From Chlorobiaceae bacterium (GTDB taxonomy: Bacteria > Bacteroidota > Chlorobiia > Chlorobiales > Chlorobiaceae): a DNA stretch of 64,000 nt. Location: the NCBI GenBank assembly GCA_013335405.1, contig JAAXVR010000006.1, positions 1 through 64,000 on the forward strand, in the 5' to 3' direction. Below the pieces are notes generated by a model. That model saw nothing but the letters and a program-made list of their open reading frames with translations. It was not told where the DNA came from and made no database searches. The position numbers and the translations under genes are program-made. This document shows positions 5,919 through 36,596 of this stretch, piece after piece (the first letter of the stretch is position 1; each line of letters begins with the position of its first letter).

Positions 5919-6815
5919 TCATAAATCGGCATCATATGCTGTGTGTGTCAGCCTGATGACAACTGGATTGAAGGCTTTTGACGCGACAAGCACCTCGTCT
6001 CCGATCCTGAGGGTTTCCATGTCGTTTTCGGTGAGAACCGCTTCGAACAGTTCATTGCCTGATCCGATTACCGCAAGGTAGATGCAGTCCGCTTTCCTTA
6101 TGCTCAGGATCGTTCCTGCAAAAGAAAATTTGTTGGAAGTGTTTCTGTTCATGAACACTTCCAATGTGTTTCCGCTTCGGATGATCTTTCCGGTTTCCAG
6201 GACAGCCACCCTGTCTGAAAGTTTGAATACCTCCAGTTTGTCATGGGAGACCAGTATGGTTGTGAGGTTGAACGCTTTATGGAGCCTGAGAATTTCGTCC
6301 TGCAGTAGTACCCTGGTTTTCTGATCGAGCGCCGAAAGCGGTTCATCGAGGAGCAGGATTTCCGGTTCCCTCAACACCGCCCGTGCAAGGGCGACACGCT
6401 GTTGCTGACCTCCCGAGAGAGTCGAGGGGTAACGGTCCGCGAGTGCTCCGAGATCGATGAGATCCAGCAGTTCGCCAACTTTACGGGTATTCCTGATGTC
6501 CTGTGCGAATAGCAGGTTTTCCCGGATTGTCATTGTCGGAAAAAGTGAATAATCCTGGAACACAAACCCGATCCTTCGTTTTCGGGCGGGCAGATTGATC
6601 CCCCTGGTGCTGTCGAACCATGTGGCACCGTTGACTTCGACGCATCCGCTTTCGGGTGTAACCAGGCCGGCGAGGATGCGGAGCAGTGTTGTTTTTCCGC
6701 TACCCGATCTCCCATACAGTGTCTGCAACGTTCCCTGTTCGATGCAGAGATCAAGAGAAAGCGTGAAAGGACCCCCGGAACCGGCCAGGTTTTTTTTTAC
6801 ATCGAGACGGATCAT
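5919..6815 (-). CDS. modC: Molybdate ABC transporter ATP-binding protein
   Basis: This 298-residue ABC ATPase has Walker A GRSGSGKTT near residue 35, Q-loop VFQDYSLF, signature LSGGQQQR, Walker B ILLLDEPLSALD and switch His in VSHDKLE. The C-terminal 70 residues form a TOBE/Mop-type domain (SFAGTILSI ... VLVASKAFNPVVIRL), as in ModC. It should energise the ModA/ModB importer encoded on the other strand at 9972-11380. Its start overlaps the stop of the di-TOBE gene by 4 bases, so the two are co-translated. Confidence 0.9.
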   Translation of the reverse strand: MIRLDVKKNLAGSGGPFTLSLDLCIEQGTLQTLYGRSGSGKTTLLRILAGLVTPESGCVEVNGATWFDSTRGINLPARKRRIGFVFQDYSLFPTMTIRENLLFAQDIRNTRKVGELLDLIDLGALADRYPSTLSGGQQQRVALARAVLREPEILLLDEPLSALDQKTRVLLQDEILRLHKAFNLTTILVSHDKLEVFKLSDRVAVLETGKIIRSGNTLEVFMNRNTSNKFSFAGTILSIRKADCIYLAVIGSGNELFEAVLTENDMETLRIGDEVLVASKAFNPVVIRLTHTAYDADL

Positions 6816-7228
6816 GAGTCACAACTCCTGTTTTCAGGAATTGTTTCGAGAGAAAGCTGGCTTGCTTTGATCAGAACCGTCACGGTATCGTTTTCCCTGA
6901 GTTGCAGGTTTTCAAGTGCTATCATGGTGATGATGCTTTGTATCGATCCGGCGGCGCTCTGCAACCCGATATCCGCAAGGATACGCCCGGTGCGGATTTT
7001 TCTGATGATGGCCGGAAAACTGTTGAGGATGGTGGTTTGTGTTGAGGAGCTGTTTGCAATCGAAACTTCGGTTTCCTTGAAAAGAACGTTCACCCGGCAT
7101 CCTTCGGAAACCGAAGAGTCAGGATCGAAAAGCAGCATATACATTGGTATCCCGGACGCGTCGAGTTCGAAGAGGCAGAGCGAGTCCTGCCGTTGGATAC
7201 GGAAGACAGTTGCTGAGAGAACGTTCAT
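6812..7228 (-). CDS. Di-TOBE (Mop-like) molybdate-binding protein
   Basis: The 138-residue protein has two TOBE-like units, about 3-65 and 70-128, the second containing FPAIIRKIRTGRILADIGLQ and VTVLIKASQLSLET. It has no helix-turn-helix and no ATPase part, so it resembles molbindin rather than full ModE. It probably binds molybdate in the cytoplasm as store or sensor. It is the first gene of a two-gene unit with modC, transcribed divergently from the TonB receptor gene. Confidence 0.7.
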   Translation of the reverse strand: MNVLSATVFRIQRQDSLCLFELDASGIPMYMLLFDPDSSVSEGCRVNVLFKETEVSIANSSSTQTTILNSFPAIIRKIRTGRILADIGLQSAAGSIQSIITMIALENLQLRENDTVTVLIKASQLSLETIPENRSCDS

Positions 7229-7477: not shown

Positions 7478-7500
7478 CGTTATGTATCAAGAGTATAACG
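7478..7500. promoter_or_regulatory. ModE-like box 1 (upstream of TonB receptor 1)
   Basis: CGTTAT-N11-ATAACG, perfect half-sites. The ModE consensus half-sites are ATCGnTATA and TATAACGAT; the gap here is 11 instead of the usual 12. It lies in the divergent region between the di-TOBE/modC unit and the receptor gene, so it could act on both. Confidence 0.55.
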
Positions 7501-7602: not shown

Positions 7603-7625
7603 CGTTATTAATTTTGGTTATAACG
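7603..7625. promoter_or_regulatory. ModE-like box 2 (just before TonB receptor 1 start)
   Basis: CGTTAT-N11-ATAACG with perfect half-sites and ATAACGAT on the right. It ends 14 bases before the ATG at 7640, so a bound regulator would block transcription. Confidence 0.5.
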
Positions 7626-7639
7626 ATTAACGTGCACGT

Positions 7640-9880
7640 ATGAAAAAAGTTTTTTTACTCGTTTTTCTTTTCGCTGTCTCTGAACCGCTGATGGCTGCCG
7701 GAGCAGCTCCGGATCCGGAACTGGTCGCGATAAAGGGGGGAAGTTCCGAAGAGATTGTCGTGCAGGGCAGGAAAGGCGATGTTCTTCAGCGGGTCACCGG
7801 CAAGGAATCAGAGGTGCTGAATCCATCCCAGATGTCGGTGTTCAAGGCAATCAACCTGATGCCTTCCCTCAGTCAGGAAAGCGTAGACCCCTGGGGTCTT
7901 GCCGATATTGTCAATTACCATGAAGCTTTCCGTTTCAGGGGTGTGGAAGCGACAGCCGGAGGCGTGCCGGCAACGACCGTCAACGTCGAAGGACTCCCGC
8001 TGACCGGAAGGCCCGGAGGCGGAGCGACCATCTACGACCTAGAGAATTTCAGCAATATCACTATCTCTACCGGAGTCATGCCTGCCTGTGCAGGGCTTGG
8101 CCTTGCCGACGTGGGCGGAAAGATCAACATGGAAATCCGCCGCCCTGAAGATAACTTCGGTTTCCTGCTGAAGCAGAGCATAGGGAGCGACAGCTTCCGC
8201 CGCACCTATCTGCGTGTTGATACCGGTCTGCTGCCTGGTGATGTGAAAGGATTCGTTTCTTTTTCCGATGCATCGGCCGACAAGTGGAAGGGCGAAGGTG
8301 ACAGCAAGAGAACGAATATCATGGCAGGGGTGACGAAACAATTCGGGGAGAACGTGAAACTCGAGACTTTCGTAACCTGCAGCAAAGGGACAATTCATCC
8401 CTATAAATCGTTCAGCTATTCTGAAATCAGCGACCTGGACTATGCGTATACAAACGAATTCGGAACCGATCCCAAGGAATACGATTATTACGATTACAAC
8501 AGAAACGAGTTCGAGGACTGGATGGTGATGGCGAACCTCGAGATCAGGACTGGGGAGCGTTCGACCCTTTCCATCAAGCCCTATTACTGGAGCGATAAAG
8601 GGTATTACCTCGAATCCGTAAAACTAAATAACAGCTCTTCATATAATAAGATAAGAAGATGGGATATCGACCACGACCTGAAGGGAATTCTTGCCGAGTA
8701 CAAAACGTCGGTGGTGGGTACCGATCTCGATATGGGATATCTCTACCATTCACAGACACGTCCCGGACCTCCCAGTTCATGGAAGAACTATAATGTAAAC
8801 AGCAGTACCGGTCAGCTCGCTTTTGACAAATGGTCTCTTCTGTCGAACAATTCGAGCCATGAACTGCATACGCTCTTCATCGAGGGCAAGCACCGGTTCG
8901 GGGATTTCCGGATCGATGGTGGACTGAAATATGTCAACTATACCCTGCCTTCGATTATTACTTACCATACGGCAGGTATCGGAGATGTCAGCCATGATGA
9001 TGCGATTGCAACGAATCCTGCAATTCTGGCTGATTACAGCGCTCCCGAAACGAAGACTTTCAGCCAGGTGTTTCCTGATGTAACGGTGACAAGGTTCATC
9101 AACGATAACCTGTCGCTTTTTGCTGCGTATGGTGAAAACTATGTCACTCACGTCGATATCTATCCCTATTTCATCCAGCAGAGCAGTTATTTTCTCGGAC
9201 ATTCCCCTGAAATTACATTCCAGCAGCTCTGGGACAGGAAGGTGATGGAAATATCGAAGAATTTCGAGCTTGGCGTCCATGCGAAAGGAAGCAACTGGAG
9301 TCTGGTCCCGACCATTTATTATACGCGGCATAACAACAAGCAGGCGGTTCTTTTCGATGAAGCGCTGAACGCTTACTATCCCATGAACAATGCGGAAGCC
9401 GAAGGGTACGGGTTCGAAGTGGAAGGCGAATACAAGCCAGTCGAAAACCTCAGGCTGTACGGTTCGTTTTCGTGGAACAAATTCTATTTCTCGCAGGATA
9501 TCCTTTCTGACCAGACGAACAGCTCAATCCCTGTCAAGGGGAGTCAGGTTCCGGATGCGCCGGAGTTTCTTGCGAAAGGGATGGTCAGCGTTAAAGCGGG
9601 GGAATTTACCATCACACCGATTGCAAGATATACCTCGGTCCGTTACGGTGACGTTCTGCACAAGGAAAAGATAGACGCAACGACGCTTTTTGATCTCGAT
9701 CTCACCTGGAGCAGTTCGATGTTCGGATTTAAAAAAGTCGATTGTTCACTCTCTTTCCTGAACATATTCGACAAGAAATATGTGAGTCTGATCAGCACTT
9801 CCGACTACAAGACATTGAAAACCTCGTACCTGCCCGGTGCTCCGTTCACTCTGATGGCTACGGTTTCGTTCCATTACTGA
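7640..9880 (+). CDS. TonB-dependent outer-membrane receptor, probably for molybdate or a molybdate complex
   Basis: The 746-residue protein has a signal peptide of about 19 residues, a TonB box (SEEIVVQG) near residue 35, a plug domain with PATTVNVEGLPLTGRPGG, and a beta-barrel ending in aromatic FHY, the usual outer-membrane targeting end. The molybdate role is inferred from context only: modA-modB lie directly downstream on the same strand and ModE-like boxes lie upstream. Siderophore-type or other metal complexes are alternatives. Confidence 0.8.
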   Translation: MKKVFLLVFLFAVSEPLMAAGAAPDPELVAIKGGSSEEIVVQGRKGDVLQRVTGKESEVLNPSQMSVFKAINLMPSLSQESVDPWGLADIVNYHEAFRFRGVEATAGGVPATTVNVEGLPLTGRPGGGATIYDLENFSNITISTGVMPACAGLGLADVGGKINMEIRRPEDNFGFLLKQSIGSDSFRRTYLRVDTGLLPGDVKGFVSFSDASADKWKGEGDSKRTNIMAGVTKQFGENVKLETFVTCSKGTIHPYKSFSYSEISDLDYAYTNEFGTDPKEYDYYDYNRNEFEDWMVMANLEIRTGERSTLSIKPYYWSDKGYYLESVKLNNSSSYNKIRRWDIDHDLKGILAEYKTSVVGTDLDMGYLYHSQTRPGPPSSWKNYNVNSSTGQLAFDKWSLLSNNSSHELHTLFIEGKHRFGDFRIDGGLKYVNYTLPSIITYHTAGIGDVSHDDAIATNPAILADYSAPETKTFSQVFPDVTVTRFINDNLSLFAAYGENYVTHVDIYPYFIQQSSYFLGHSPEITFQQLWDRKVMEISKNFELGVHAKGSNWSLVPTIYYTRHNNKQAVLFDEALNAYYPMNNAEAEGYGFEVEGEYKPVENLRLYGSFSWNKFYFSQDILSDQTNSSIPVKGSQVPDAPEFLAKGMVSVKAGEFTITPIARYTSVRYGDVLHKEKIDATTLFDLDLTWSSSMFGFKKVDCSLSFLNIFDKKYVSLISTSDYKTLKTSYLPGAPFTLMATVSFHY

Positions 9881-9913
9881 TATGCTTTCTTCGTGTTCTT
9901 TCTCTCGTGTGTG

Positions 9914-9945
9914 CTCCCGGCAGGTTCAGACGCCGGGAGTTGTTT
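9914..9945 (+). terminator. Terminator between TonB receptor 1 and modA
   Basis: CTCCCGGC (9914-9921) and GCCGGGAG (9932-9939) form a perfect 8-bp stem followed by TTGTTT. If partial, it would lower modAB relative to the receptor. Confidence 0.55.
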
Positions 9946-9971
9946 CCGGATATCATTAAAGGTTATCAGAA

Positions 9972-10700
9972 ATGCAGAAGAAGTTCCTGTCGTTTTGCGC
10001 TCTCATCGTTTCGCTTTTCCTTACCGCTTCGCTTCGTGCCGAAACCATAACGATTGCTGCCGGTGCGGGATACAAGAGGCCTCTTATGGAGATTGCGGAA
10101 AAATTCGAAAAAAAGACCGGCAATCATGTGGATGCTGTTTTCGGGCACATGCAGCAGATTCTTTCCCAGGCGCAGATGACCGGGCAGGTCTCGGTCATTT
10201 TCGGTGACCGGAGTTTTTTCGACAGATCCACCATCGGTTTCGTATCGTATTATCCTGTGGGAAAAGGAACGCTCGTGCTTGCGTGGCGCAAGGGGCTGAG
10301 CCTGAACAGTATCGATGACCTGCGGCGAAAGAGTTTTTCCAGAGTTGCTCTGGCCGATGAGAAAAAGGCGATTTACGGGCATGCCGCCGCCGAATTCCTG
10401 AAAAAATCCGGGTTGTCACGATCGATACAGGGAAAGCTCATTGTCGTTGCAACCGTACCTCAGGTTTCTGCATATCTTGAAACAGGAGAAGTTGACGCCG
10501 GGTTCATCAACGTAACCGACGCTATCGGAATCCATGAACATATAGGGGGTTACCTTCCTGTCCGCCAGTCTTTCTATACACCGATCCACATCGAGGCGGG
10601 TGTTGTCACCGGTTTCGAAAACCAGGCAGTGGTCAAGGCATTCCTGAAATTCATGCAGGAAAAAGAGTGCCTTGCGGTTCTCAGGTATTACGGACTCTGA
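9972..10700 (+). CDS. modA: Molybdate ABC transporter substrate-binding protein
   Basis: This 242-residue secreted protein has a signal peptide (about 1-23, ending LRAE) and the ModA-like fold: ITIAAGAGYKRPLMEIAEKFEKKTG at the start, VIFGDRSFFD, YPVGKGTLVLAWRKG, and the late VDAGFINVTDA loop. It captures molybdate or tungstate in the periplasm for ModB/ModC. The N-terminal 'GAGYKRP' departs from the usual 'AASLTDA', so it belongs to a divergent branch and oxyanion preference is uncertain. Its stop overlaps the modB start (TGATG). Confidence 0.85.
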   Translation: MQKKFLSFCALIVSLFLTASLRAETITIAAGAGYKRPLMEIAEKFEKKTGNHVDAVFGHMQQILSQAQMTGQVSVIFGDRSFFDRSTIGFVSYYPVGKGTLVLAWRKGLSLNSIDDLRRKSFSRVALADEKKAIYGHAAAEFLKKSGLSRSIQGKLIVVATVPQVSAYLETGEVDAGFINVTDAIGIHEHIGGYLPVRQSFYTPIHIEAGVVTGFENQAVVKAFLKFMQEKECLAVLRYYGL

Positions 10701-11380
10701 TGGAACACGCTCTGCATATACTTTCAGGCAGCGGTATAACCGGTCCTCTCCTGCTCACGGCTGAAACTTCGGTTGTAACCCTTCTGCTTCACCTGGCAGC
10801 AGGGGTTACTGCCGGATATCTTTTCACCTGCAAAAGGAACCCGTTTATCTCCTTTGCCGATGCGATTATCACCCTGCCTCTGGTTTTCCCTCCCATTGCT
10901 ACCGGCTTCCTGCTTCTTATGCTTCTCGGAAGGAATGGCCTGATCGGCGCGCCTTTGCTCTCTTTTGGGACGGCCATCATCTTCAGCAAATCCGGCGTTT
11001 TCATCGCATCGTTCATCGCAGGGCTGCCGCTTGTCGTGAAATCCGTCCAGGCTGCTGTGGAGGGGGTGAACCCTTCACTTATCGAGGCGGCCTGGACACT
11101 GGGAAAAAACAGGCTTCAGACCTATCGTTTCGTGGTGCTGCCATCCATCAGCCGTGCGCTGATTGCCGGACTCATTCTTTCACTGGGGCGTTCGCTAGGG
11201 GAGGTCGGCATCACGCTCATGCTCGGGGGTAATATCATAGGGAAGACCGAGACGGTATCACTCGCCGTCTATAACGCTGTATTCGAGGGAAATTTTGAAA
11301 AAGCGGCACTGCTTTCCGTTCTGCTCGGAGCAGTATCGATCGCGCTGTTTTATGCTTTGCGAAAATTCAGCAGGAACTGA
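10700..11380 (+). CDS. modB: Molybdate ABC transporter permease
   Basis: This 226-residue protein has five or six membrane segments and the BPD_transp_1 EAA loop (LIEAAWTLGKNRLQTYRFVVLP), followed by GRSLGEVGITLMLGGN, as in ModB/CysT-type permeases. The start chosen is the ATG at 10700, which shares one base with the modA stop. It forms the inner-membrane channel for the ModA-ModC importer. modC is not in this operon; it lies divergently at 5919-6815. Confidence 0.9.
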   Translation: MEHALHILSGSGITGPLLLTAETSVVTLLLHLAAGVTAGYLFTCKRNPFISFADAIITLPLVFPPIATGFLLLMLLGRNGLIGAPLLSFGTAIIFSKSGVFIASFIAGLPLVVKSVQAAVEGVNPSLIEAAWTLGKNRLQTYRFVVLPSISRALIAGLILSLGRSLGEVGITLMLGGNIIGKTETVSLAVYNAVFEGNFEKAALLSVLLGAVSIALFYALRKFSRN

Positions 11381-11522
11381 CCATGTGCGGTTTCAGCTGC
11401 CGCGATCACATATGTTTATTAACGGACGAGGCCGTGCGTTGATGATAGTGGCTTTCGGGTGTACCTTTTTGCACGGCAATATGCTGTTTTGAATGTTCAG
11501 TAAACTGTCCGGAACTGTTTCA

Positions 11523-11550
11523 ATCGTTATGTCATAATGAATATAACGAT
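11523..11550. promoter_or_regulatory. ModE-like box 3 (upstream of TonB receptor 2)
   Basis: ATCGTTAT-N12-ATAACGAT: 8-base arms perfectly inverted with the 12-base gap of the ModE consensus. It lies 109 bases before the receptor start at 11659. This is the best match of the set. Confidence 0.7.
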
Positions 11551-11658
11551 AGGAAACAGCAAAAAGGTGAAAGGGCAAGTGAGCGGGAAAATCGGCGATC
11601 AATACGATTTGCTTTTTGTTATCCATTTCAATTTCAATCATTTAACGTATTCCCAACA

Positions 11659-13578
11659 ATGAAAAACAGATCCAGTAAACTGCTCATGCTTCTTGCGCTG
11701 CTGAGCTCTGCAGCCTGTCCCGAGCTCTATGCCGGTCCATCTTCATTGAATGGAGGTCAGTCGGAGGAAATTGTCGTTACCGCTACACTCAATGAAACTC
11801 CTGTTTCGAAAGTACCGGCGGCAGTCGAGGTGATCGAGAGAAAGGAAATCACCGAAAGCGGAGCCGCAACGCTCTCCGATGTGCTGACTGAAGCCCAGAG
11901 CATCACCCTCGAACCCTCGAACGGCAGGATAAGCGTGGCCAGGCTGCGCGGTCTCGGAAGCAGGAACACACTCGTTCTCGTCGACGGCATGCGAATGTAC
12001 AGCGGCTTCCAGGGATTGCTCGACTTGGGCGAAATCCCTGCCGGCCTGATCGAGAGGATCGAAATTATCCGCGGCTCGGGTTCAGCCCTTTACGGGAGCG
12101 ATGCGGTCGGGGGTGTCATCAACATCATTACCAGGAAACCTTCGAAGGATTTTCACGCCGGACTGAACATCTCTACCGGCCAGAGCACCTACGGTGAGGC
12201 AGGCAGTATCAATACGAACGCATATGTCAGCGGTATCGAGGGAAAGCTCGGGTATGTCATTTCCGGAACCTATAACAACAGGGACCGCTATGACAGGGAC
12301 AGGAGCGACCTTGTGACGGACGGTGACGACAGGCTTTTTGCCGGATATTCCACGGCGTTGAATTACCAGCTGACACAAGGGGTGAACATGTCGTTCGGCA
12401 TCAATTACGCCGATACGAAACTCGAAGGAATTCGTTATACAAGTAACGTGTACAAGAACAGGACGGTCAATGCCGATCGACTTTTCGGTTATATTGGCCT
12501 GGATATCGATACCGGTAAAGATTCCAGACTGACACTTCGCACATGGAAATCCGACTATGACTGGCAATCGGATATGCAGCCGATTGCCGGAGGTGCTGTG
12601 GAAACGACATCGGTCGATGTCGATACCAACCAGTACGAAGGCCGCTGGACGGCAACGCTCGCAGAAAACCACCGGATCACGACCGGTTTCGAGTACACTA
12701 CCGAAGACAGGGTGGACACTGCTGATAAAAGCATACCGCATAATGTCCATAACTTCGGGGCATTCCTCCAGGATGAAGTGCAGCTTGCCGAACCATTCGG
12801 TCTGGTAGTCGGAGCGAGATATGACGAGCATTCCGATTTCGGAAGCGCGTTCAGCCCCAAAGTCGGCGCCTGGCTCAAACTCAATGAACATCTGCGCCTG
12901 AGGGGTTCCTACGGCGAGGGCTTCAGGGCGCCAACGGTCTGGGAACTTTATATCGGATCGCCATTTACCAACAACAAGAAAATAATAGCAAATCCTGAAC
13001 TCGATGCCGAGAAATCCCGTTCCTATGAAATCGGTGCGGATGGGAAGTGGGGCACGTTTATCTGCGGTATCACCGCTTTCAGGAACGATATGCGTGATAT
13101 GATCAGTGAAGTGCCAGTTGTAAACAAACCAAAAACCTATGATCTGAAAAACATTTCCAGGGCAATGACCAGAGGCATTGAAATTACTACCGGGATCAGA
13201 TTGCCATACGGCTTCACCCTTTCCGATGAAGTGACATTTCTCGATACCGAAGATCTGAGCACCGGCAATGAGCTGCTGTTCGTTCCTGATGCGGCAAACA
13301 CCGTCAAGCTCGCCTGTAAGGGAGGAAAAGGATTCAGCGGCAATATCAGGGTGGTTACGACTGGTCGGCAATGGACAGAAGAGAGTAACACAAGAATCCG
13401 GACAGATCCCTATACGCTTGTCAACTGCTACCTTGGGAAAAAGGTGAACAGCAATGCGGAACTGTTTGTCGGTGTCGACAACATCTTCAATGTCGATGCC
13501 AATGCGGCATATGGCAACAGCGGCGGTGCAGGTTCCACGGGAACATATTTCTATGGCGGCATCATGTGCACCTTGTAA
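11659..13578 (+). CDS. TonB-dependent outer-membrane receptor 2 (BtuB/CirA-like)
   Basis: The 639-residue protein has a signal peptide of about 25 residues, TonB box SEEIVVTAT, plug domain (VPAAVEVIERKEI ... RLRGLGSRNTLVLVDGMRM ... IEIIRGSGSALYGSDAVGGVINIIT) and a C-terminal barrel with FRAPTVWELY and a TonB_dep_Rec end. Plug motifs are those of siderophore/cobalamin receptors. A strong ModE-like box precedes the gene, so uptake of molybdate or a metal chelate under Mo control is the working inference. Confidence 0.82.
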   Translation: MKNRSSKLLMLLALLSSAACPELYAGPSSLNGGQSEEIVVTATLNETPVSKVPAAVEVIERKEITESGAATLSDVLTEAQSITLEPSNGRISVARLRGLGSRNTLVLVDGMRMYSGFQGLLDLGEIPAGLIERIEIIRGSGSALYGSDAVGGVINIITRKPSKDFHAGLNISTGQSTYGEAGSINTNAYVSGIEGKLGYVISGTYNNRDRYDRDRSDLVTDGDDRLFAGYSTALNYQLTQGVNMSFGINYADTKLEGIRYTSNVYKNRTVNADRLFGYIGLDIDTGKDSRLTLRTWKSDYDWQSDMQPIAGGAVETTSVDVDTNQYEGRWTATLAENHRITTGFEYTTEDRVDTADKSIPHNVHNFGAFLQDEVQLAEPFGLVVGARYDEHSDFGSAFSPKVGAWLKLNEHLRLRGSYGEGFRAPTVWELYIGSPFTNNKKIIANPELDAEKSRSYEIGADGKWGTFICGITAFRNDMRDMISEVPVVNKPKTYDLKNISRAMTRGIEITTGIRLPYGFTLSDEVTFLDTEDLSTGNELLFVPDAANTVKLACKGGKGFSGNIRVVTTGRQWTEESNTRIRTDPYTLVNCYLGKKVNSNAELFVGVDNIFNVDANAAYGNSGGAGSTGTYFYGGIMCTL

Positions 13579-13629
13579 AACTTTATCGTACCTTGCCTTT
13601 ACCTTTTATCAACCTTGAACTTTCAAGCA

Positions 13630-14028
13630 ATGGTTCTGTTTAAAAAATCGTGTTTTATCATTGCATTTCTGTCATTCGCGGTCGGCTCACTTCATGCCGC
13701 ACCTGCTTCGTCGGAGGGCAGGCTGCTGTATGACAGGCATTGCAGCGTGTGCCACTCGATGGCCCCTCCTCCGAAATCGGCTCCCCCGATTATCGGTATT
13801 TCTCTTCATTATCGCGAGGCTTTCAGCGACAGGGGAAAAGGGGTGAAACACATGGCGGAGTTCATGAAAAAACCGGATGCAAAAAACTCGAAGCTCGAAG
13901 CTGCCGCTACAACAAGGTTCGGTCTCATGCCCGCCATGTCGCTTTCCGACAAGGAACTTGCAATTGTTGCGGGCTGGGTGTGGGACAGTCACGACCCGAA
14001 TTTCAGATTACCGGGAAACTGTAAATAA
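13630..14028 (+). CDS. Small secreted c-type cytochrome, 132 residues
   Basis: A signal peptide (about 1-25) is followed by one haem motif, CSVCHSM, near residue 38, and a distal Met candidate in LMPAMSLSD, which fits a class I mono-haem cytochrome c. The segment between is Pro-rich (APPPKSAPPIIGIS). The ATG at 13630 was chosen; a TTG at 13615 would add five residues. It follows receptor 2 by 51 bases and could be co-transcribed, but a link to metal uptake is not evident. Confidence 0.8.
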   Translation: MVLFKKSCFIIAFLSFAVGSLHAAPASSEGRLLYDRHCSVCHSMAPPPKSAPPIIGISLHYREAFSDRGKGVKHMAEFMKKPDAKNSKLEAAATTRFGLMPAMSLSDKELAIVAGWVWDSHDPNFRLPGNCK

Positions 14029-14129: not shown

Positions 14130-15128
14130 TCACTCGGCATCTTCAATCAGCTCACCGCTCCTGAGTCTTGTGCGCAGAGCCATCAGTCTGTTGTCGAGCG
14201 CTTCGAGCATCGCAAGGTTCGTTTTTTCTTTTTCGGTTGTGCGCAGTACCTTGTGTATTCCGCCGTTCCGGATGACGAGCCGCTGTTCAGCCATGAGGGC
14301 AAGGATCGGATCGTGAGTAGCCATCAGCACGATTTTTTCATTCCTGACCAGGAGTGAAAGTGCTTTTTTCCTGTCGATGCCTGCATTTTCAATTTCGTCG
14401 ATCAGCACCACCGGGGAAGAACTGAGAAATGCCGTGTCGGCGATCATCAGTGCTCTCGACTGTCCACCCGAAAGGGAGGTGACCGGGGTTTCAGCCTTGA
14501 ACTGTTCCCCTGCGAGCAGGTTTGCCTGTGCGATAATCTCTCCGACCACTTCTGCGCCATTGCCGATCATGCGGCTTTCGGCGTGCAGGGCAACAAAATC
14601 GGCGACTGTGGTATCCATCACGAAATTCATATTCTGCGAAAGCTGTGCGACCAGTTTGTATTCGAGGGAGAAGCGCAGGTCCGGGTCGGGAACCTCCCCG
14701 TTTACCAGGATTGCCCGGCCGGTAGGCGTGTCGCGTTGAGCCATCCACTCGATATCAGCCAGCAGGCGGCTTTTTCCGGAACCTGTCGGTCCGACGATAC
14801 TGGTGACCGAACCACGGACGAGGGTAAGGCTCATATCTTCAGACTTTCCGCTCTTGTCGTGACCTCCGATTATCGTAATATCGTTCACTGGCGGCAGTCT
14901 GCTGTTCAACGTTTCGTGTCTCTGCCTGATGAACCCTTCAATCTGTTCCAGCAGGCCTGATCGGTCGATACCCAGATCCTCGTAGGTTTCTTCCGGAAGA
15001 GATTCAAGAAAGGCCCTGAGGGAGAGGGCGGGGTTATCGGGAACAAGCCCGTAATCCTGAAAAATACCCGACAGTTCAGGTGCCCCGGTGATGAGATCTT
15101 CTATTTTCTGTTCATACCATACGGTCAT
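14130..15128 (-). CDS. Stand-alone ABC-type ATPase with DUF1858/ScdA-like N-terminus
   Basis: Of 332 residues, the first 75 or so (EDLITGAPELSGIFQDYGL ...) resemble DUF1858/ScdA-N helical domains. The ATPase part has Walker A GPTGSGKS (113-120), signature LSGGQ (219-223), Walker B VVLIDEIENAG (from 240) and switch His (272). The Walker B has DEIE where transporters usually have DEP. No membrane permease is encoded nearby. The start overlaps the GTPase stop by 4 bases. Role unknown; metal-cofactor handling is an inference from the operon and the ModE-like box upstream of it. Confidence 0.75.
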   Translation of the reverse strand: MTVWYEQKIEDLITGAPELSGIFQDYGLVPDNPALSLRAFLESLPEETYEDLGIDRSGLLEQIEGFIRQRHETLNSRLPPVNDITIIGGHDKSGKSEDMSLTLVRGSVTSIVGPTGSGKSRLLADIEWMAQRDTPTGRAILVNGEVPDPDLRFSLEYKLVAQLSQNMNFVMDTTVADFVALHAESRMIGNGAEVVGEIIAQANLLAGEQFKAETPVTSLSGGQSRALMIADTAFLSSSPVVLIDEIENAGIDRKKALSLLVRNEKIVLMATHDPILALMAEQRLVIRNGGIHKVLRTTEKEKTNLAMLEALDNRLMALRTRLRSGELIEDAE

Positions 15129-15823
15129 GAAGCGCTCTCCTGAATTTTTATCCTTTTGATGTTTCCGAGCTGGAATTCCATGCCGATCCTTGTTTCCCCC
15201 AGGCAGTATGAACATAATGCCGCGGGCATGGAAAAACGCAGACGTTCTCCTTCGAGATTGACCGTTTCAGGGGCTTTTTCGAACTGGGAAGCGAGCTCGC
15301 TTGCCCCCTGACCGGTGATGCCGTTGATATGCATGATCCTTGCCTTCGGATTCGCCCTCCTCACCTGGAATGCGAACACCTCCCGTTCTGCCTGTGAGAC
15401 GATGTCGCCTTTCGTGATGACGACGATATCGGCGTATTTGAGCATCGGTCCGATCTTTTTCGGGGTTGTCGCCCCCATGAGGTTGTCAATGACACAGACG
15501 GCGAGAACTCCCTTGATATGCGGAGCGCAACGGTTGCAGAGACCTGCGCTTTCGGAAAGCAGAATGTCGAGCCCGAGCTCGATGCCCCACGTGAGGCATT
15601 CCTCGATATTGCTGACGAAGTAGTGATCCGGACAGAGGTTTCCGGAGAGTCCCGTCTGGACAGGTATTCCGAGGGATTTGAATCGAACGTCGTCATCGGT
15701 GCTGAGACAGTCGTATTTCAGCGCTCCGGTCCGCAGGCCAGCCGTTTTCAGGGATTTAATGACGCCGGCGAGCACAGCTGTTTTTCCCGATGATGGAGGT
15801 CCGGATATGGTGACAAGTTTCAT
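15125..15823 (-). CDS. HypB/UreG/MobB-like SIMIBI GTPase with two CxxC pairs
   Basis: The 232-residue protein has P-loop GPPSSGKT (8-15), an ESAGLCNRC segment (91-99) and guanine-specificity TKGD (137-140), as in the nickel-insertase GTPases HypB and UreG. Cysteine pairs at C96/C99 and C204/C207 could bind metal. Such GTPases load metals into enzymes or handle cofactors. It is the middle gene of a three-gene unit with the binding-protein homologue and the ABC ATPase. No hydrogenase or urease gene is in the window, so a different target is likely. Confidence 0.8.
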   Translation of the reverse strand: MKLVTISGPPSSGKTAVLAGVIKSLKTAGLRTGALKYDCLSTDDDVRFKSLGIPVQTGLSGNLCPDHYFVSNIEECLTWGIELGLDILLSESAGLCNRCAPHIKGVLAVCVIDNLMGATTPKKIGPMLKYADIVVITKGDIVSQAEREVFAFQVRRANPKARIMHINGITGQGASELASQFEKAPETVNLEGERLRFSMPAALCSYCLGETRIGMEFQLGNIKRIKIQESAS

Positions 15824-15856
15824 GATGGAAATGTTACGAAATGATTGAATGCATGT

Positions 15857-16927
15857 TCAGGTCCGGAAAACGTCCGGTCCGAGACCCTTTTTCAGTTCAA
15901 CATCGAGCTCGGCGACCAGTTCTTCATAGTCGTTGTTCATAAGGTATTCCCAGGAAGGGTAACTGAAGGGCTGCGACCAGTCGAACTCGTCAGCAAGGAA
16001 GAAATCACCCCTGCGCAGCGCATGCCTGATCGTCGCACTGTGCAGAAAATTGACGAGAGGCCGGCACTCTTCCATTCGTGATGTCTTGACATACATCAGC
16101 ATTGGTGCCAGGACAGGTCCATCCTCGAATTCGAGGATGGCGGCCTGTTTTTTCGATGGCATCTGGACGGTTGCGGCATTTGGCAGCAGGTTGAACGGGG
16201 TGCGGCGTGGTTCCGATGAATCGAGTCTTTTCAGTACCTCGGCGAAATGCCAGACGTTGCGGATGTTTCCTGCAAAATCGATGACGGCGTTTTTGCCGAG
16301 TTGTTCCCTGAGAACGAGAAGGAGAGCCGCAATGCTTGCCTTGCCGTTATATCCGTGGACCGTGATAAGGTCTTTATAGCGCGGATTGACAAGATCGGTC
16401 CAGCGGTGCGGGTAGGGAACGGCAGTTTTGAGCGAGAGATCGCAGACGATGCTCCACTGGCCGATGCTGAAAATGCCGATATTGTTTTCCGTTGCAATTT
16501 TTTTGTATGCATCGGGCATTTTTCCCAGCGCGGCTTCGCTGGTGATCCCGGTATAGATGCCGGAATCGATGAACCGTTTTTTAAAACCTTTTGACAAAAC
16601 GGTGTGAAGACCTGCCGCAATCATTATTTCGGGAATTTCTTCTTCGCTTTCCGCTGCTTTCAGTTCACCTTCGATTCCCTTCGAATCCCCGTCGAGCAGC
16701 ATGGGAGAATAGATCGGCACTGTGTGGGAACTGTTGTAGCGTTCGGCAAATTCACCGATCACCATTTTTACCACTACCTTGAGCGGGCAGGGCATATTCA
16801 TGTAGAGGTTGATCGCCCCTTTTTTCAGGAGCGGGATGCCGTTTCCCGTTGATTTTTTTGTCAGCGGAGTACTGCAGGTCGCAATGACGGTTCCGTCCCT
16901 GTCCTTTCTGTCGAACGACTTCATCAT
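15857..16927 (-). CDS. Substrate-binding-protein homologue without signal peptide
   Basis: This 356-residue protein has the bilobal type II periplasmic-binding fold by sequence pattern (MNMPCPLKVVV, RWTDLVNPRYKDLITVHGYNG, LEFEDGPVLAPMLMYV), similar to Fe3+/oxyanion binding proteins. The N-terminus is charged (MMKSFDRKDRDG) with no hydrophobic segment, so it should stay in the cytoplasm. An upstream ATG at 16981 with GAGG before it adds 18 polar residues and still no signal. It heads the unit with the GTPase and ATPase. A ModE-like box lies 230 bases upstream. Confidence 0.7.
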   Translation of the reverse strand: MMKSFDRKDRDGTVIATCSTPLTKKSTGNGIPLLKKGAINLYMNMPCPLKVVVKMVIGEFAERYNSSHTVPIYSPMLLDGDSKGIEGELKAAESEEEIPEIMIAAGLHTVLSKGFKKRFIDSGIYTGITSEAALGKMPDAYKKIATENNIGIFSIGQWSIVCDLSLKTAVPYPHRWTDLVNPRYKDLITVHGYNGKASIAALLLVLREQLGKNAVIDFAGNIRNVWHFAEVLKRLDSSEPRRTPFNLLPNAATVQMPSKKQAAILEFEDGPVLAPMLMYVKTSRMEECRPLVNFLHSATIRHALRRGDFFLADEFDWSQPFSYPSWEYLMNNDYEELVAELDVELKKGLGPDVFRT

Positions 16928-17158
16928 GGTTCTGTTTCTGGTTGAGCGGTTTCCGGTTCCTTCATTCCCTTTCGGGAACATGGTGTAAGAACCTCGTCGA
17001 CTTCTTTTCCGGAAAGCTCTCGGTGATAGAAAATGCTGAAATATCCTTTTGTCGCCTGCCTTCCCTTATCTTTCCGGGCCGCACCCCTGTGTTCTCCTGC
17101 CCCGAACCGGTCCGGCATTGCGTTTCCCGTTTGTTTTCCTGGATACCGGCGAAATCAA

Positions 17159-17184
17159 TCGCTATCCATATTGTTCTATAACGG
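17159..17184. promoter_or_regulatory. ModE-like box 4 (upstream of the binding-protein/GTPase/ATPase unit)
   Basis: ATCGCTAT-N12-ATAACG. The left arm matches the consensus ATCGnTAT and the gap is the canonical 12. It lies between the start of the three-gene unit (minus strand) and the decayed methyltransferase (plus strand), and could act on either. Confidence 0.55.
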
Positions 17185-17337: not shown

Positions 17338-17775
17338 TTGAAAAAAGCGGAGAATCCCATGTACACCATGAATGCCGGAGAGTACCATGAAAAGGTCATG
17401 AAGGGCTTATTCAGAAAGTTGTATCCTGTTTTCGCCGGGCAGATCGTAACCCCGAACCGGTATAACTTCCGGCCACTGTCTCGATCTTGGGGGGGCCGGG
17501 CATGCCTGGCATCTCGATTGCGAAAATCACCGATCTGAGGGGTAACGGTTGCAGGCCCGATGGATGCGTGCGTCGAACTTGCCATGGAGAATATTCTCGA
17601 ACACGGCGTCGGGAAGAGGGTAAACGCGATGAAGGGTTTCGCCGGGTCACTGCCTCTTGACGACAGTATTGCAGATTTTGTGATAAACCGGGGTTCGATA
17701 TTGTTCCGGGAAGATCAGGAAAAGGGATTTAACCGTTGTTCCGGTATCGAGCGCTGTGGCATAGCTCCGGCTCTT
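17338..17775 (+). pseudogene. Decayed class I SAM-dependent methyltransferase
   Basis: Fragments of one methyltransferase are found in different frames: MYTMNAGEYHEKVMKGLFRK from 17359; CLDLGG at about 17477-17494; PGMPGISIAKITDL at about 17496-17537; and VTVAGPMDACVELAMENIL through SIADFVINRGSILF from about 17541. At least three frameshifts separate them, one at a run of seven G (17489-17495) and one at 17537-17542. The 3' end is scrambled where a 'YRVL.GGIA' motif would be expected. The SAM motif is thus split and the gene cannot make the full enzyme unless sequencing errors are to blame. Confidence 0.75.
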
Positions 17776-18812: not shown

Positions 18813-21005
18813 TCATGCGATCTGGCGGGTTGCCAGTTTTCTGAAGAAGCTCCCCTGCGCCATAAGTTCTTCATAGGTCCCCTGCTCGACGATACGACCG
18901 TCGTCGAGGCAGTAAATCCTGTCGGCATTGCGTATGGTGCTGAGCCTGTGGGCTATCACGATCCTTGTCGATTTGAGTTTTTCAAGGCTGTCGCTGATTA
19001 TCTCCTGCGTATGGTTGTCCAGAGCGCTTGTCGCTTCATCGAAAAAAATCATTGCAGGTTTGCGTACCATGGCTCCCGCAATCAGCAACCTCTGTTTCTG
19101 CCCCCCCGAGACGGTTTCGCATCTTTCGCTTATGATGGTATACATGCCCATCGGCATTTTTCTTATATCCTCTTCGATCCCGGCCATCCTTGCAGCTTCC
19201 CATGCATCGTCAACCGTCAGGGCGGACGATCCGGTGATGGTGTTCAGAACAAAGCCCGGCTGGAGCTGGGCATTCTGCAGAACCACGCCTGTCTGGCGAC
19301 GGACTGCCTGCACGTTGAGGGTGGAAAGGTCGATACCATCGTAAAATACCGTTCCGGTACCAGGTTTTTCAAAACCGAGGAGGAGGCGCATCAACGTGGA
19401 TTTTCCGGATCCTGACGTCCCGACGATCGCTATGAATTCTCCCGGTTCCGCCTTGATATCGATGTCATGGAGGATTTGAGGCCCGTCCTCGTCATAGCTG
19501 AAATTAACTCCCCTCAGTTCTATCCGTCCCTGGAGCCGTTCAGGCCGGGTTCTGGTACGGGTGGTTTCAGGGAGTGCCTCAAGAACAGGTTTGATGCGTT
19601 CGTAGAGAGGAATGACATCGAGGCTGCCGATAATGGCCATCGTCGACTGCAGCAGAGCGGTCTGAAAAACGGTGAATGCCGAAGTGAACGCGATGAAAGA
19701 ACCGCAGCTGAGATGTTCCCCAGTCATCATGCTTCCTGCTGAAAAAATTATGACACCGAGGGCAATGACGGGAAACGATGCCGTCGTGACGGCAAGCAGG
19801 TTCTGTATTCTTCCCGCACTGAACATCAGGCTGCGTTCCACTTTGTACTTTGAAGCCCACTGTGCGAAAGCATGCTTTTCACTTCCGGTGATTCTGATTT
19901 TGGCAATTCCCGTCAGCAGGCTGCCGAGAAGTCCTGAAATATCGCCGCGTGTTGCGACTGCGAGTTTTTTTATCACCAGCTGTCGATAGCTCGCCCATAC
20001 GGTGCCGACGATGAGTGTACCGGTCAGGGCCGCTGCTACGAGGGCGAGTTTCCAGCTGTAGCAGAAAAGGAGGAAGAAATTCATGAAACCGAACACCATT
20101 CCGAGGAATACGGTCAGCACTGCAGTGCTGAGCACTTCCCTGATCTGTGATATGCCGAGTATGCGGGTCGCAAGGTCACCGGAGGAAAATTCCCTGAAAA
20201 ACGAACTTGGAAGGTTGAGAAGACGGTCGATAAAAGCAGGCTGGAGCCTGATGTCGAGACGGGATTGCACACGCATCACCAGAATCTGGCGGGCAAGTTC
20301 GAACCCGCATGAGGCAAAAACGCTGGCTGCCAGGATCATCGAAAGTTGCAGCAACTGCTCACCGGACGATTGCGGGATGACAGAGTCGAAAAGGATCCCG
20401 GTAAGGATCGGAACGAGAAGTCCGATGGCAGAGCCGGTTATACCGAAAAGGATGATAATCCAGAGATCGGTCCTGCTTCCGGATATTCCGTAACGGACGA
20501 TATCTCCGAAATGAAGGATCTTCTGGGGGAAAGGGCGGTAGAAGGTCCATGCGTTTTCATGATCGATTTCCTCCTGCAGTTTCTGATCCAGAACGAGTAC
20601 CTCTTTTGTTCCCGGATCGATCATTCGGTAGCCTTTTGCGTCGCGAATGAGGGCTACGGGATTTCCTGAACGGCTGCGGTATGCAAGTATGGGGCCGTTT
20701 TCATGCAGCCACCAGTCTCCGTTTCTGCTGAGGTTTACCCTGCGTATGCGAACCCCCGAATAGCGGCAGATTGTCTGCAGAGGATCTTCATGGGTAACCT
20801 CCGTTTCCCGGTCGGGTTTGCTGATGGCGATATGCGAAGCATTCCCCACCAGCATGCAGGCGGCGAACAGAGGATCGGAACCATCTGCGTGAGTGTCGCT
20901 CTCTTTCAGCAGTATTTCCGACAATCCTTCGAGCGCATTTCGGTAACGCTCCTGCTGAAAGCGGTTTTTTTCAGTGAACCGTTTTCCTGAACTTTCTGCT
21001 GCCAT
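18813..21005 (-). CDS. NHLP-type bacteriocin export ABC transporter, permease/ATPase without peptidase
   Basis: This 730-residue protein has an N-terminal region of about 160 residues without Cys-protease motifs, an ABC exporter membrane domain (about 175-460) and a nucleotide-binding domain with VGTSGSGKST, VSGGQKQR, IFFDEATSALD and IAHRLSTIR. Architecture and partners match the second ABC subunit of the NHLM (nitrile-hydratase-leader microcin) export system. It probably forms a heterodimer with the peptidase-bearing ABC protein encoded 71 bases upstream. Confidence 0.82.
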   Translation of the reverse strand: MAAESSGKRFTEKNRFQQERYRNALEGLSEILLKESDTHADGSDPLFAACMLVGNASHIAISKPDRETEVTHEDPLQTICRYSGVRIRRVNLSRNGDWWLHENGPILAYRSRSGNPVALIRDAKGYRMIDPGTKEVLVLDQKLQEEIDHENAWTFYRPFPQKILHFGDIVRYGISGSRTDLWIIILFGITGSAIGLLVPILTGILFDSVIPQSSGEQLLQLSMILAASVFASCGFELARQILVMRVQSRLDIRLQPAFIDRLLNLPSSFFREFSSGDLATRILGISQIREVLSTAVLTVFLGMVFGFMNFFLLFCYSWKLALVAAALTGTLIVGTVWASYRQLVIKKLAVATRGDISGLLGSLLTGIAKIRITGSEKHAFAQWASKYKVERSLMFSAGRIQNLLAVTTASFPVIALGVIIFSAGSMMTGEHLSCGSFIAFTSAFTVFQTALLQSTMAIIGSLDVIPLYERIKPVLEALPETTRTRTRPERLQGRIELRGVNFSYDEDGPQILHDIDIKAEPGEFIAIVGTSGSGKSTLMRLLLGFEKPGTGTVFYDGIDLSTLNVQAVRRQTGVVLQNAQLQPGFVLNTITGSSALTVDDAWEAARMAGIEEDIRKMPMGMYTIISERCETVSGGQKQRLLIAGAMVRKPAMIFFDEATSALDNHTQEIISDSLEKLKSTRIVIAHRLSTIRNADRIYCLDDGRIVEQGTYEELMAQGSFFRKLATRQIA

Positions 21006-21076
21006 GGTATCGTTTTATTGTGCCACAGAATATGCGGCTTCATTTTTTTTGTTTTTCTGAGGCATCGCTGCAGGAT

Positions 21077-23257
21077 CTACCCTTTTGCGACAAGTTCCGC
21101 ATAGGCTCCGCCAGATGCCATGAGCGACGCATGAGTACCACGCTCAACGACTTTGCCGGAATCGAGGACGATAATCTCGTCGCAGTCACGGATAGTGCTC
21201 AGCCGATGGGCTACGATCAGGCATGAGCAACCGCGCTTGCGGATATTCCCGTCGATGATTTTTTCAGTTGCAGGGTCCAGCGCGCTTGTCGCTTCGTCAA
21301 GTATCAGGATCGAAGGATCCTGCGAAAGTGCCCTTGCAATTTCAATCCGCTGTCGCTGACCGCCGCTGAAGTTCCTTCCCCCCTCTCCGAGAATGCACTG
21401 GTATCCCCCTGTCCTCGCAACGATCACATCGTGGATGGCCGCATCCCTGGCTGCCCGGGTTATCTCTTCATGAGGCATCGTCAGATCCCACATGGCGATA
21501 TTTTCAGCTATCGTTCCTTCGAAAAGGCTTATTTCCTGGTCAACCATGCTTATCGCAGCCGCAAGCTGTTTGCGGGGAATATGCTTTCTCGGCATGCCAT
21601 CGAAGAGCACATTTCCCGACCATGGTTCATAAAGTCCTGCAACAAGTCTTGCTATGGTCGATTTCCCCGATCCGGAGCTTCCGACCAGCGCTATCCGGTC
21701 GCCGGGCTTGAGTTTCAGGGAAAAATTTTCAATCAGCGGCGGCTCAAGGAGAGTGTAGCCGAAGCTGACGTTGTTCAGTTCGATCCTTCCTTCCAGTTTC
21801 CTGACTTCACCGGAATCTCCAGCATCCTCATCCCCGGCAAGTTCGCAATCGTTGTCCATGACATCGTCGAGACGCTGCAAGCCAGCCTCGGTATCCTGAA
21901 GTTTCTCGGCGAGGCCGACCATCTGGTTCACAGGGGCGAGGAACGAAAGCATGAGGCTCTGGAATGCGACCAGCATTCCAGTCGTGAGGTTTCCTTCCAT
22001 GACCCGCAAGCCTCCCAGGGTGAGAATGGCGACGTTTCCGATCGACTGGAGAAAGGGCGGCAGGGCAAGCAGGAATATGGTCGTGGTCTGGAGCTGCTGA
22101 CGACCGGTAACCATGTCAGCGAACAGCCCGGCCCACCGTGAAAAGAAATCCTGTTCATTTCCCGAAGCTTTGAGGCTTTCTATGGTCCTGATTCCATAGA
22201 AGGTTGTTCCCATGAGCTTTCCGTTATCATGCAGGAACTTCCTGTTCAGACTGGCGCGTTTTCTCGATACATAGAAGAGGGCTGATGAGTTGAGAAGTGC
22301 GATGCCGACAGCACCAAACGTGAGGATGAGATCATACCTGAGCATGAGCAACGCGTAGAAGACGATCAGCAGGACATTCAGCGATCTGGTAGAAAGTTCT
22401 CCGGCAAGCATTGACGAAACCTGGTCGTTCAACTGGACGCGGTTTGATATTTCGCCTGCCTGACGCATGGTGAAAAATCGCATCGGCAGGGCGAACACAT
22501 GATTGAAGAATCGTGCCGAAGAAACAAGGGCAAGTTTTGTTTCGGCCCGGAGGATACAGTTCTGCTGAAGCCAGGTCAGTATCCCTTGCAGAAAGGCTGT
22601 CAGCAGCATGCCGACAAGGAGCGGCTGTATCCAGCCGGAAGTTTCCTTCACAAGGACATAATCGATGTAGATCCTCAGGAACGATGGTACCAGAAGGCCG
22701 GGAACGACAAGAAGGATGCTTGCGAGTATGATGAAGGCCAGCGGCTTTTCCATACCGGGCACTCTTTTTTTCAGCGCCTCGGAAAGTCGGAATGGCTGTC
22801 CGCCGGGCTTGAACGAAGCGGTTTTTTCGAGAGTGACAGCAATCCCGGAATAAGAGTCGCTGAACTCCTTCGGTGTCACTTTTCTTTGTCCGGACGCAGG
22901 ATCGTTGATATAATAATGTCCTTTCCTGAAACCCTCGAATACCACGAAATGGTACATGTTCCAGAAGAGGATCATCGGAAGATTCTTTCTGTGGAGGTCA
23001 TCGAGGTCCAGCCGGCACCCTTTCGCCTCGATACCGTATTTTCCGGCTGCCTTCATGATGTTGCTCGCCTTGCTGCCGTCGCGGGAAACCCCGCAGTCAG
23101 CGCGGAGCTGTTCAAGGGGGACATGGAGGCCGAATGAAGCAAGGACCATACCGAGTGATGCCGCCCCGCATTCGGTCGCTTCCATCTGGAGTACAGTCGG
23201 TGTCTTGACCCGCGCTTCGTCCCAAAGCTTTTCTGATGGAAAGAGCATGAAGCTCAT
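21077..23257 (-). CDS. NHLP-type bacteriocin export ABC transporter with C39 peptidase
   Basis: The 726-residue protein has three parts: a C39 peptidase (catalytic Cys 30 in QMEATECGAASLGM, His 103, Asp 119), an ABC exporter membrane domain (about 170-450) and an ATPase domain (VGSSGSGKST, FSGGQRQR, ILILDEATSALD, VAHRLSTI). It should cut a double-glycine-type leader and export the peptide. The ATG at 23257 was chosen because GGAGG sits 8 bases upstream; a longer frame from a GTG at 23338 lacks such a site. Confidence 0.88.
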   Translation of the reverse strand: MSFMLFPSEKLWDEARVKTPTVLQMEATECGAASLGMVLASFGLHVPLEQLRADCGVSRDGSKASNIMKAAGKYGIEAKGCRLDLDDLHRKNLPMILFWNMYHFVVFEGFRKGHYYINDPASGQRKVTPKEFSDSYSGIAVTLEKTASFKPGGQPFRLSEALKKRVPGMEKPLAFIILASILLVVPGLLVPSFLRIYIDYVLVKETSGWIQPLLVGMLLTAFLQGILTWLQQNCILRAETKLALVSSARFFNHVFALPMRFFTMRQAGEISNRVQLNDQVSSMLAGELSTRSLNVLLIVFYALLMLRYDLILTFGAVGIALLNSSALFYVSRKRASLNRKFLHDNGKLMGTTFYGIRTIESLKASGNEQDFFSRWAGLFADMVTGRQQLQTTTIFLLALPPFLQSIGNVAILTLGGLRVMEGNLTTGMLVAFQSLMLSFLAPVNQMVGLAEKLQDTEAGLQRLDDVMDNDCELAGDEDAGDSGEVRKLEGRIELNNVSFGYTLLEPPLIENFSLKLKPGDRIALVGSSGSGKSTIARLVAGLYEPWSGNVLFDGMPRKHIPRKQLAAAISMVDQEISLFEGTIAENIAMWDLTMPHEEITRAARDAAIHDVIVARTGGYQCILGEGGRNFSGGQRQRIEIARALSQDPSILILDEATSALDPATEKIIDGNIRKRGCSCLIVAHRLSTIRDCDEIIVLDSGKVVERGTHASLMASGGAYAELVAKG

Positions 23258-23399
23258 CCGCAGGTTCCTCCAGGTGTTTGGTTGATCAGAGGTTCTTGCC
23301 GGTCTTTCATGGCAGTTGCAAGTCGGTTTGAAAGACACTCCTGCAGTTCGGTCGCTCCTGTTCCTTTGAATGTCTTTTCCGACACTGCCTGAATGCGTT

Positions 23400-24521: not shown

Positions 24522-24848
24522 TGAGGAACAGGTGGACAGGATATATGCAAGCTGCTGCAAAAGCGGGTTTTCTGATGCCCCCCCCGTCAGGAATGATGAA
24601 TTTGCAGTCTTTTTTTGGTGTAATTTATTGCACGATATTTTTAATACCAAACATTCCGGTCAGTATCTGTTTGAAAGCATGAGGCCCTGGTCCTGCTACC
24701 ACACCCTTTTTTTATTCCCATAAGTACGGGATTCATCTTTTCAATGCATGCTTTTGCTTCAATTCAAAGGCGATGATGGTCTGCGTTTGATGTTCGTTAA
24801 AAAATCACCCTGCCTGTCCGGTCCGCAAGATACAGGTGTATTTTAGTA
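24522..24848. other. Gap upstream of the export cluster; no precursor peptide recognised
   Basis: Peptide precursors with Nif11 or nitrile-hydratase-like leaders are often next to such exporters. Here I see none in either strand; a 31-codon frame (24641-24736, minus) has no leader character and no ribosome site. Confidence 0.5.

Positions 24849-35083: not shown

Positions 35084-36596
<1,513 letters not shown>

Follow-up and report, generated by a model that had tools for sequence, protein, structure and literature searches.

TonB-dependent outer-membrane receptors ordinarily serve the uptake of iron or vitamin B12. Some of them take up bare metal ions, copper entering through OprC and manganese through MnoT (PMC8602904). 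For molybdenum (Mo), the consensus site of the E. coli-type regulator ModE has been published as CGNTATATA-N6-TATATANCG and is also cited as ATCGNTATATA-N6-TATATANCGAT (PMC545781), and MolA of Haemophilus influenzae binds molybdate according to a title cited in PMC11734730. In the literature searched, which was covered in part, no report of a TonB-dependent Mo receptor was found. Here we describe three TonB-dependent receptors (TBDT1, TBDT2, and TBDT3) of a Chlorobiaceae bacterium (GCA_013335405.1; 2.47 Mb in 62 contigs), whose close relatives by name are Chlorobium, Chlorobaculum, and Pelodictyon (Chlorobiaceae). TBDT1 and TBDT2 lie in a molybdate locus within a stretch of 64,000 nucleotides of contig JAAXVR010000006.1 (C5), here called the window. 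Judged from sequence, the three receptors are quite probably outer-membrane importers of Mo species, possibly also of tungsten species, under the control of ModE.

Receptors and ModE-type boxes

TBDT1 (7640..9880, forward strand) is followed by modA (9972..10700, forward; molybdate-binding protein, TIGR01256, 104.8 bits, cut-off 62.5) and by modB (10700..11380, forward; permease, TIGR02141, 173.8 bits, just below the cut-off of 182.6), the start of modB overlapping the modA stop. The CirA/BtuB-like TBDT2 (11659..13578, forward) comes next. An earlier note made from the DNA sequence had placed the first receptor directly upstream of modAB; the open reading frames (ORFs) of both receptors are present at the positions it gave, and the ModA and ModB matches bear out that arrangement. 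TBDT3, absent from the earlier note, is a third TonB-dependent receptor with a ModE box and is encoded outside the window (contig C1, L006, 10277-12271). It is flanked on one side by nifB and on the other by a molybdopterin-oxidoreductase-like gene, a second modA, modE, and molybdenum cofactor genes, which were named by eye from their translations as moaA, moaC-mog, moeA, and mobAB.

When the window was searched for the palindrome CGTTAT-N-ATAACG, three sites were found against 0.01 expected (0.01-0.03 per window across the box searches). These ModE-like boxes lie between mop-modC and TBDT1 (7478..7500, CGTTAT-N11-ATAACG), immediately ahead of TBDT1 (7603..7625, ending 15 bp before its start codon), and upstream of TBDT2 (11525..11548), in agreement with the earlier note, which had reported such boxes at both receptor genes. 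The form CGNTAT-N12-ATANCG additionally revealed a box that the note had lacked (17160..17183, CGCTAT-N12-ATAACG), located upstream of a conserved gene trio described below; another match to this form, at 11253 inside modB, is probably due to chance. The boxes of the window agree with the published ModE consensus at the outer half-sites, and since the consensus has an N6 core, the N12 form has equal spacing (PMC545781). Across the genome five perfect CGTTAT-N-ATAACG sites were counted and none of a control pattern, and all five are located at most 200 bp upstream of TBDT1, TBDT2, or TBDT3. A genome search allowing two mismatches (118 sites versus 85 in the control) was too noisy and was discarded. 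The genome also encodes ModE itself, with a ModE helix-turn-helix domain above cut-off and two Mop/TOBE domains. Studholme and Pau reportedly treated ModE sites in green sulfur bacteria in 2003, possibly including several of those described here.

Orthologues were searched in 98 Chlorobia genomes and were found in about 32 (TBDT1), 27 (TBDT3), and 22 (TBDT2 or near kin) of them. Where 300 bp or more of upstream sequence was available, a box matching CGNTAT-N11/12-ATANCG perfectly was present within 1 kb at 26 of 29 TBDT1, 23 of 27 TBDT3, and 12 of 18 TBDT2 orthologues (the last count omitting four T2para rows and duplicate rows from split matches), and every case had a box with at most one mismatch. 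T2para, the sister clade of TBDT2, carried the box at none of its four loci. The upstream set as a whole (982 kb) contained 100 box sites, compared to 4 in the same sequence reversed. In the orthologues the box often starts 35-45 bp ahead of the start codon, a placement that would suit repression. TBDT1 adjoins modA, modB, or modE in 28 of 30 loci (hand count; in L069 the distance to modE is about 2 kb) and has nifB within about 4 kb in 21 of 30, while in several genomes without TBDT1 the slot beside nifB is occupied by TBDT3. One TBDT3 orthologue (G040, C39:9032-11011) contains an in-frame TAA. The conserved promoter boxes suggest that the receptors belong to the ModE regulon, and regulation and gene neighbors together point to molybdenum. 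Other perfect boxes in Chlorobia precede nifH-like, nifA-like, modE, Mop-modC, cytochrome c, and uroporphyrinogen-methyltransferase-like genes (some named by eye). In many Chlorobia (L118, L121, L127, L231) the uroporphyrinogen-III-methyltransferase-like gene (PF00590) immediately follows a ModE box or shares an operon with one.

All three proteins have the features of TonB-dependent receptors. Pfam detects the plug and the TonB-dependent barrel in TBDT2 well above cut-off (PF07715 and PF00593), and TBDT3 likewise satisfies plug and large beta-barrel through Pfam. For TBDT1 the Pfam search gave no match; its N-terminus aligns with TBDT3 (33% over 185 aa), in which Pfam detects a plug, and the same fold is predicted by an AlphaFold2 model (pLDDT 70, pTM 0.74, with low confidence in the plug part), which superseded an earlier model of low confidence. 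The 50 best matches listed for this model in the PDB were exclusively TonB-dependent transporters. As PqqU, PiuA, FecA, Fiu, FoxA, and OprC were matched about equally, at 12-15% identity, the fold of TBDT1 names no ligand. TonB boxes occur in all three receptors (EEIVV near residue 38 of TBDT1, EEIVVTA in TBDT2, and, as the third motif, GEITV). The genome holds seven TonB-dependent receptors, TBDT1 included, and a single TonB was found, at C33:40896, next to an ExbD-like ORF identified by eye.

A quick maximum-likelihood tree separated the three receptors into three groups outside the E. coli siderophore and B12 receptors, the deep placements being unsure because of long branches. The tree thus upholds the view of the earlier note that the two receptors of the window are of different subtypes, and the phylogenetic check that it had proposed puts neither of them inside the E. 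coli siderophore or cobalamin branches. TBDT1 sits on a long branch and is joined there by its Desulfobacterota homologues alone. TBDT2 is placed near CirA, FepA, and BtuB, outside all of them and outside the CirA-FepA pair. Its top PDB match is CirA (1.4e-40), and its similarity to the CirA/FepA/BtuB set spans 1e-40 to 1e-28; nevertheless it scores 238 bits with the BtuB family model (cut-off 599.7) and 159 bits with that of CirA (cut-off 745). Identification of TBDT2 as BtuB was rejected on this score, its position outside the BtuB clade, and the lack of a riboswitch, and identification as CirA or FepA was rejected on the CirA score and its position outside their clade. A receptor on contig C24 joins BtuB in the tree (support 83) and carries a cobalamin riboswitch; it is likely the BtuB of this genome and is distinct from TBDT1-3.

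Neighboring genes and related operons

To the left of TBDT1, on the reverse strand, lie a ModC-like ABC ATPase (5919..6815; top NCBIfam model modC_ABC, 216.6 bits, below the cut-off of 285) and, overlapping it, a Mop/TOBE molybdate-binding protein (6812..7228; PF03459, E 1.2e-8; TIGR00638 Mop below cut-off). To the right, TBDT2 is followed by a small c-type cytochrome (13615..14028, forward; PF13442), which also follows TBDT2 in other genomes, and then by the trio on the reverse strand (14130-16981). The trio comprises a soluble ABC ATPase (ABC2; 14130..15215, PF00005), a CobW/HypB-type GTPase (15125..15823, PF02492, 78-96% identity in relatives), and an SBP_bac_6 binding protein (15857..16981, PF13343, E 1.2e-57) in which no obvious signal peptide was seen by eye. 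In L042 the trio operon has a perfect box upstream; no plasmid match for the trio was found. It is highly conserved, travels with the receptors, and may act as a Mo chaperone.

A more complete operon occurs in several genomes of a second genus and also in G086, which is more distant. Its members vary, and its order is ModE box, methylase, TBDT3, FecCD permease, ATPase, S-adenosylmethionine (SAM) methyltransferase, MolA-like periplasmic binding protein, trio, TBDT2, and cytochrome c. For this binding protein the match to H. influenzae MolA (HI1472) has an E-value of 1.7e-13, compared to 5e-4 for BtuF. Of this operon the window retains TBDT2, the cytochrome, the trio, and a methyltransferase remnant interrupted by an in-frame stop (17359..17760, forward; tblastn 46%, E 7e-29), while the MolA-like protein and the FecCD permease, present in relatives, are absent among the genes around its receptors. 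In Desulfosarcina cetonica a homologue of the methyltransferase is encoded two genes downstream of the TBDT1 homologue, and one Desulfobacterota neighborhood contains a PBP_like gene, of a type found in molybdopterin proteins.

Distant relatives of TBDT1 (28-29%) are encoded on plasmids of the methanotrophs Methylosinus sp. C49 and Methylocystis sp. MJC1 (L243, L244). Downstream of them come genes for a binding protein, a FecCD permease, and an ATPase, which are related to their counterparts in the Chlorobia operon, and the binding protein of the C49 plasmid also matches HI1472 (1.6e-14). Ahead of three methanotroph relatives of TBDT1 there are ModE-like sites that require a 7-base spacer and show 3 mismatches in 16 positions; such weak sites, at both cluster ends on L243 and L244, are suggestive only, because AT-rich promoters in GC-rich DNA favor such matches. 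In Shinella a MolA-like homologue is located among glp, a gene for a molybdopterin-binding protein, and modA.

The window further contains an NHLP-type bacteriocin export system (18813-24650) of two ABC subunits and a HlyD-like protein, all above family cut-off, and a SAM riboswitch (RF00162) at 35084-35190.

Proposed uptake route, ligands, and alternatives

The green sulfur bacteria that have these genes possess a Mo nitrogenase cluster and inhabit sulfidic water, in which Mo is possibly scarce and thiolated. We propose that at low Mo ModE would leave the boxes, so that the receptors are produced and may capture scarce Mo species at the cell surface. The single TonB of the genome would engage the TonB box of a receptor and drive the Mo species into the periplasm, where the metal might reach ModA as the oxyanion and be carried inward by ModB and ModC, mainly for nitrogenase. 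In related Chlorobia the MolABC-like importer could serve as an alternative inner-membrane step.

Several observations weigh against Mo import by these receptors. In relatives ModE-type boxes also front molybdoenzyme-type and nif genes, and control by ModE alone is therefore no proof of a Mo ligand. The Desulfobacterota homologues of TBDT1 (45-48%) lie away from modABC and have no box, and a TBDT1 relative in OB3b adjoins FecR and sigma-factor genes of a kind that is typical for iron uptake. The receptor loci showed no chelator genes, and molybdate is thought to be able to cross porins. The proposal of the earlier note that the receptors are devoted to Mo under ModE is well supported by regulation, neighborhood, and conservation; its interpretation as a whole is partly supported.

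As for the ligand, we lean slightly towards a foreign Mo chelate, with (thio)molybdate itself second. Our tentative first choice is uptake of a xeno-molybdophore, a chelated Mo complex produced by other microbes, akin to siderophore piracy. Azotobacter supplies Mo-binding compounds for uptake (PMC3440940), and the closest PDB match of TBDT2, CirA, is a catecholate receptor, which is the one weak hint at the catecholate molybdophore considered in the earlier note. The inner-membrane importer of the relatives is of the FecCD type, a chelate class; however, its close match MolA is a molybdate-binding protein, so that a FecCD importer need not imply a chelate. The lack of chelator genes in the receptor loci also speaks against a chelate, as does the importer adjacent to the receptors in this genome, ModAB, which is for bare oxyanions. 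A self-made molybdophore was considered and rejected, as no gene for such a chelator was linked to the system: near a non-ribosomal peptide synthetase (NRPS) cluster on contig C29 neither a receptor nor an exporter nor a ModE box was noticed. This cluster (C29:41311-52198, L112) comprises three NRPS genes; it has three condensation domains, ends in a thioesterase-like part, and includes an ORF resembling a phosphopantetheinyl transferase.

Direct binding of thiomolybdate or molybdate, in the way OprC and MnoT bind copper and manganese, appears somewhat less plausible. In the presence of sulfide, sulfur replaces oxygen in molybdate (PMC3528336), and Mo is below 10 nM in the sulfidic Lake Cadagno (PMC8346585). 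The position of TBDT1 ahead of modAB and the reported molybdate binding of MolA fit such a ligand, as does the precedent of TonB-dependent uptake of bare metal ions. A passage of molybdate through porins would speak against it; moreover, no binding site can be identified from the sequence, and the TBDT1 model is of medium confidence.

Import of iron siderophores, cobalamin, or other tetrapyrroles by receptors that merely stand under ModE, for instance to feed nitrogenase with iron, is unlikely. The resemblance of TBDT2 to CirA and BtuB, the uroporphyrinogen methyltransferase-like gene and the CobW-type GTPase in the operon of relatives, and the FecR next to the OB3b relative would agree with it. 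Regulation by iron or cobalamin, which the earlier note had named as a finding that would speak against Mo, was looked for: no cobalamin riboswitch was found in the window, and the one in the genome is at the C24 receptor; no convincing Fur box was found for the receptors, the best matches having 6-7 mismatches in 19 positions. Linkage to modA, modB, or modE in 28 of 30 TBDT1 loci and the MolA-like partner argue further against this alternative. That the boxes are chance palindromes of AT-rich promoters in an accidental gene neighborhood can practically be dismissed, as it is already contradicted by their conserved position and their excess over the controls (100 versus 4 over 982 kb, five versus none in the genome).

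If the receptors import Mo, the picture of molybdate simply leaking in via porins is incomplete, a new metal is added to the TonB-dependent list, and the supply of Mo nitrogenase in Proterozoic-like waters becomes testable. With some reserve we suggest that TBDT1-3 may be the first Mo-dedicated TonB-dependent receptors and that, together with the MolABC-like importer, the methyltransferase, the CobW-type GTPase, and the soluble ABC ATPase, they could form a full route for uptake and processing of a Mo complex. If so, the methanotroph members of the TBDT1 family with their MolABC-like importer would carry this route beyond Chlorobia.

Comparison with known systems

TBDT2 resembles CirA, FepA, and BtuB of E. 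coli in sequence and in having a plug, a barrel, and a TonB box; unlike these, it forms a separate clade, scores well short of the family cut-offs for CirA and BtuB, and carries a ModE box in place of a riboswitch or Fur box. OprC and MnoT resemble the proposed Mo receptors in being energized systems for scarce metals that are induced at low metal (PMC8602904); OprC is among the fold matches of TBDT1. Metal and regulator are different, however, and identity to OprC is about 12-13%. In Pseudomonas aeruginosa an outer-membrane protein, IcmP, acts in molybdate uptake together with ModA in the ModA-IcmP system of the H2 type VI secretion system (PMC8602904). The MolABC system of H. influenzae (HI1470-1472) is paralleled by the operon of relatives with its MolA-like binding protein and FecCD permease, whereas the window has ModAB and ModC-like genes, and TonB receptors belong to the operons here. 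Finally, the boxes have the same architecture as those of the E. coli-type ModE regulon (PMC545781); the site listed there fronts a mod operon, whereas in this genome the outer-membrane receptors are the chief predicted targets of ModE.

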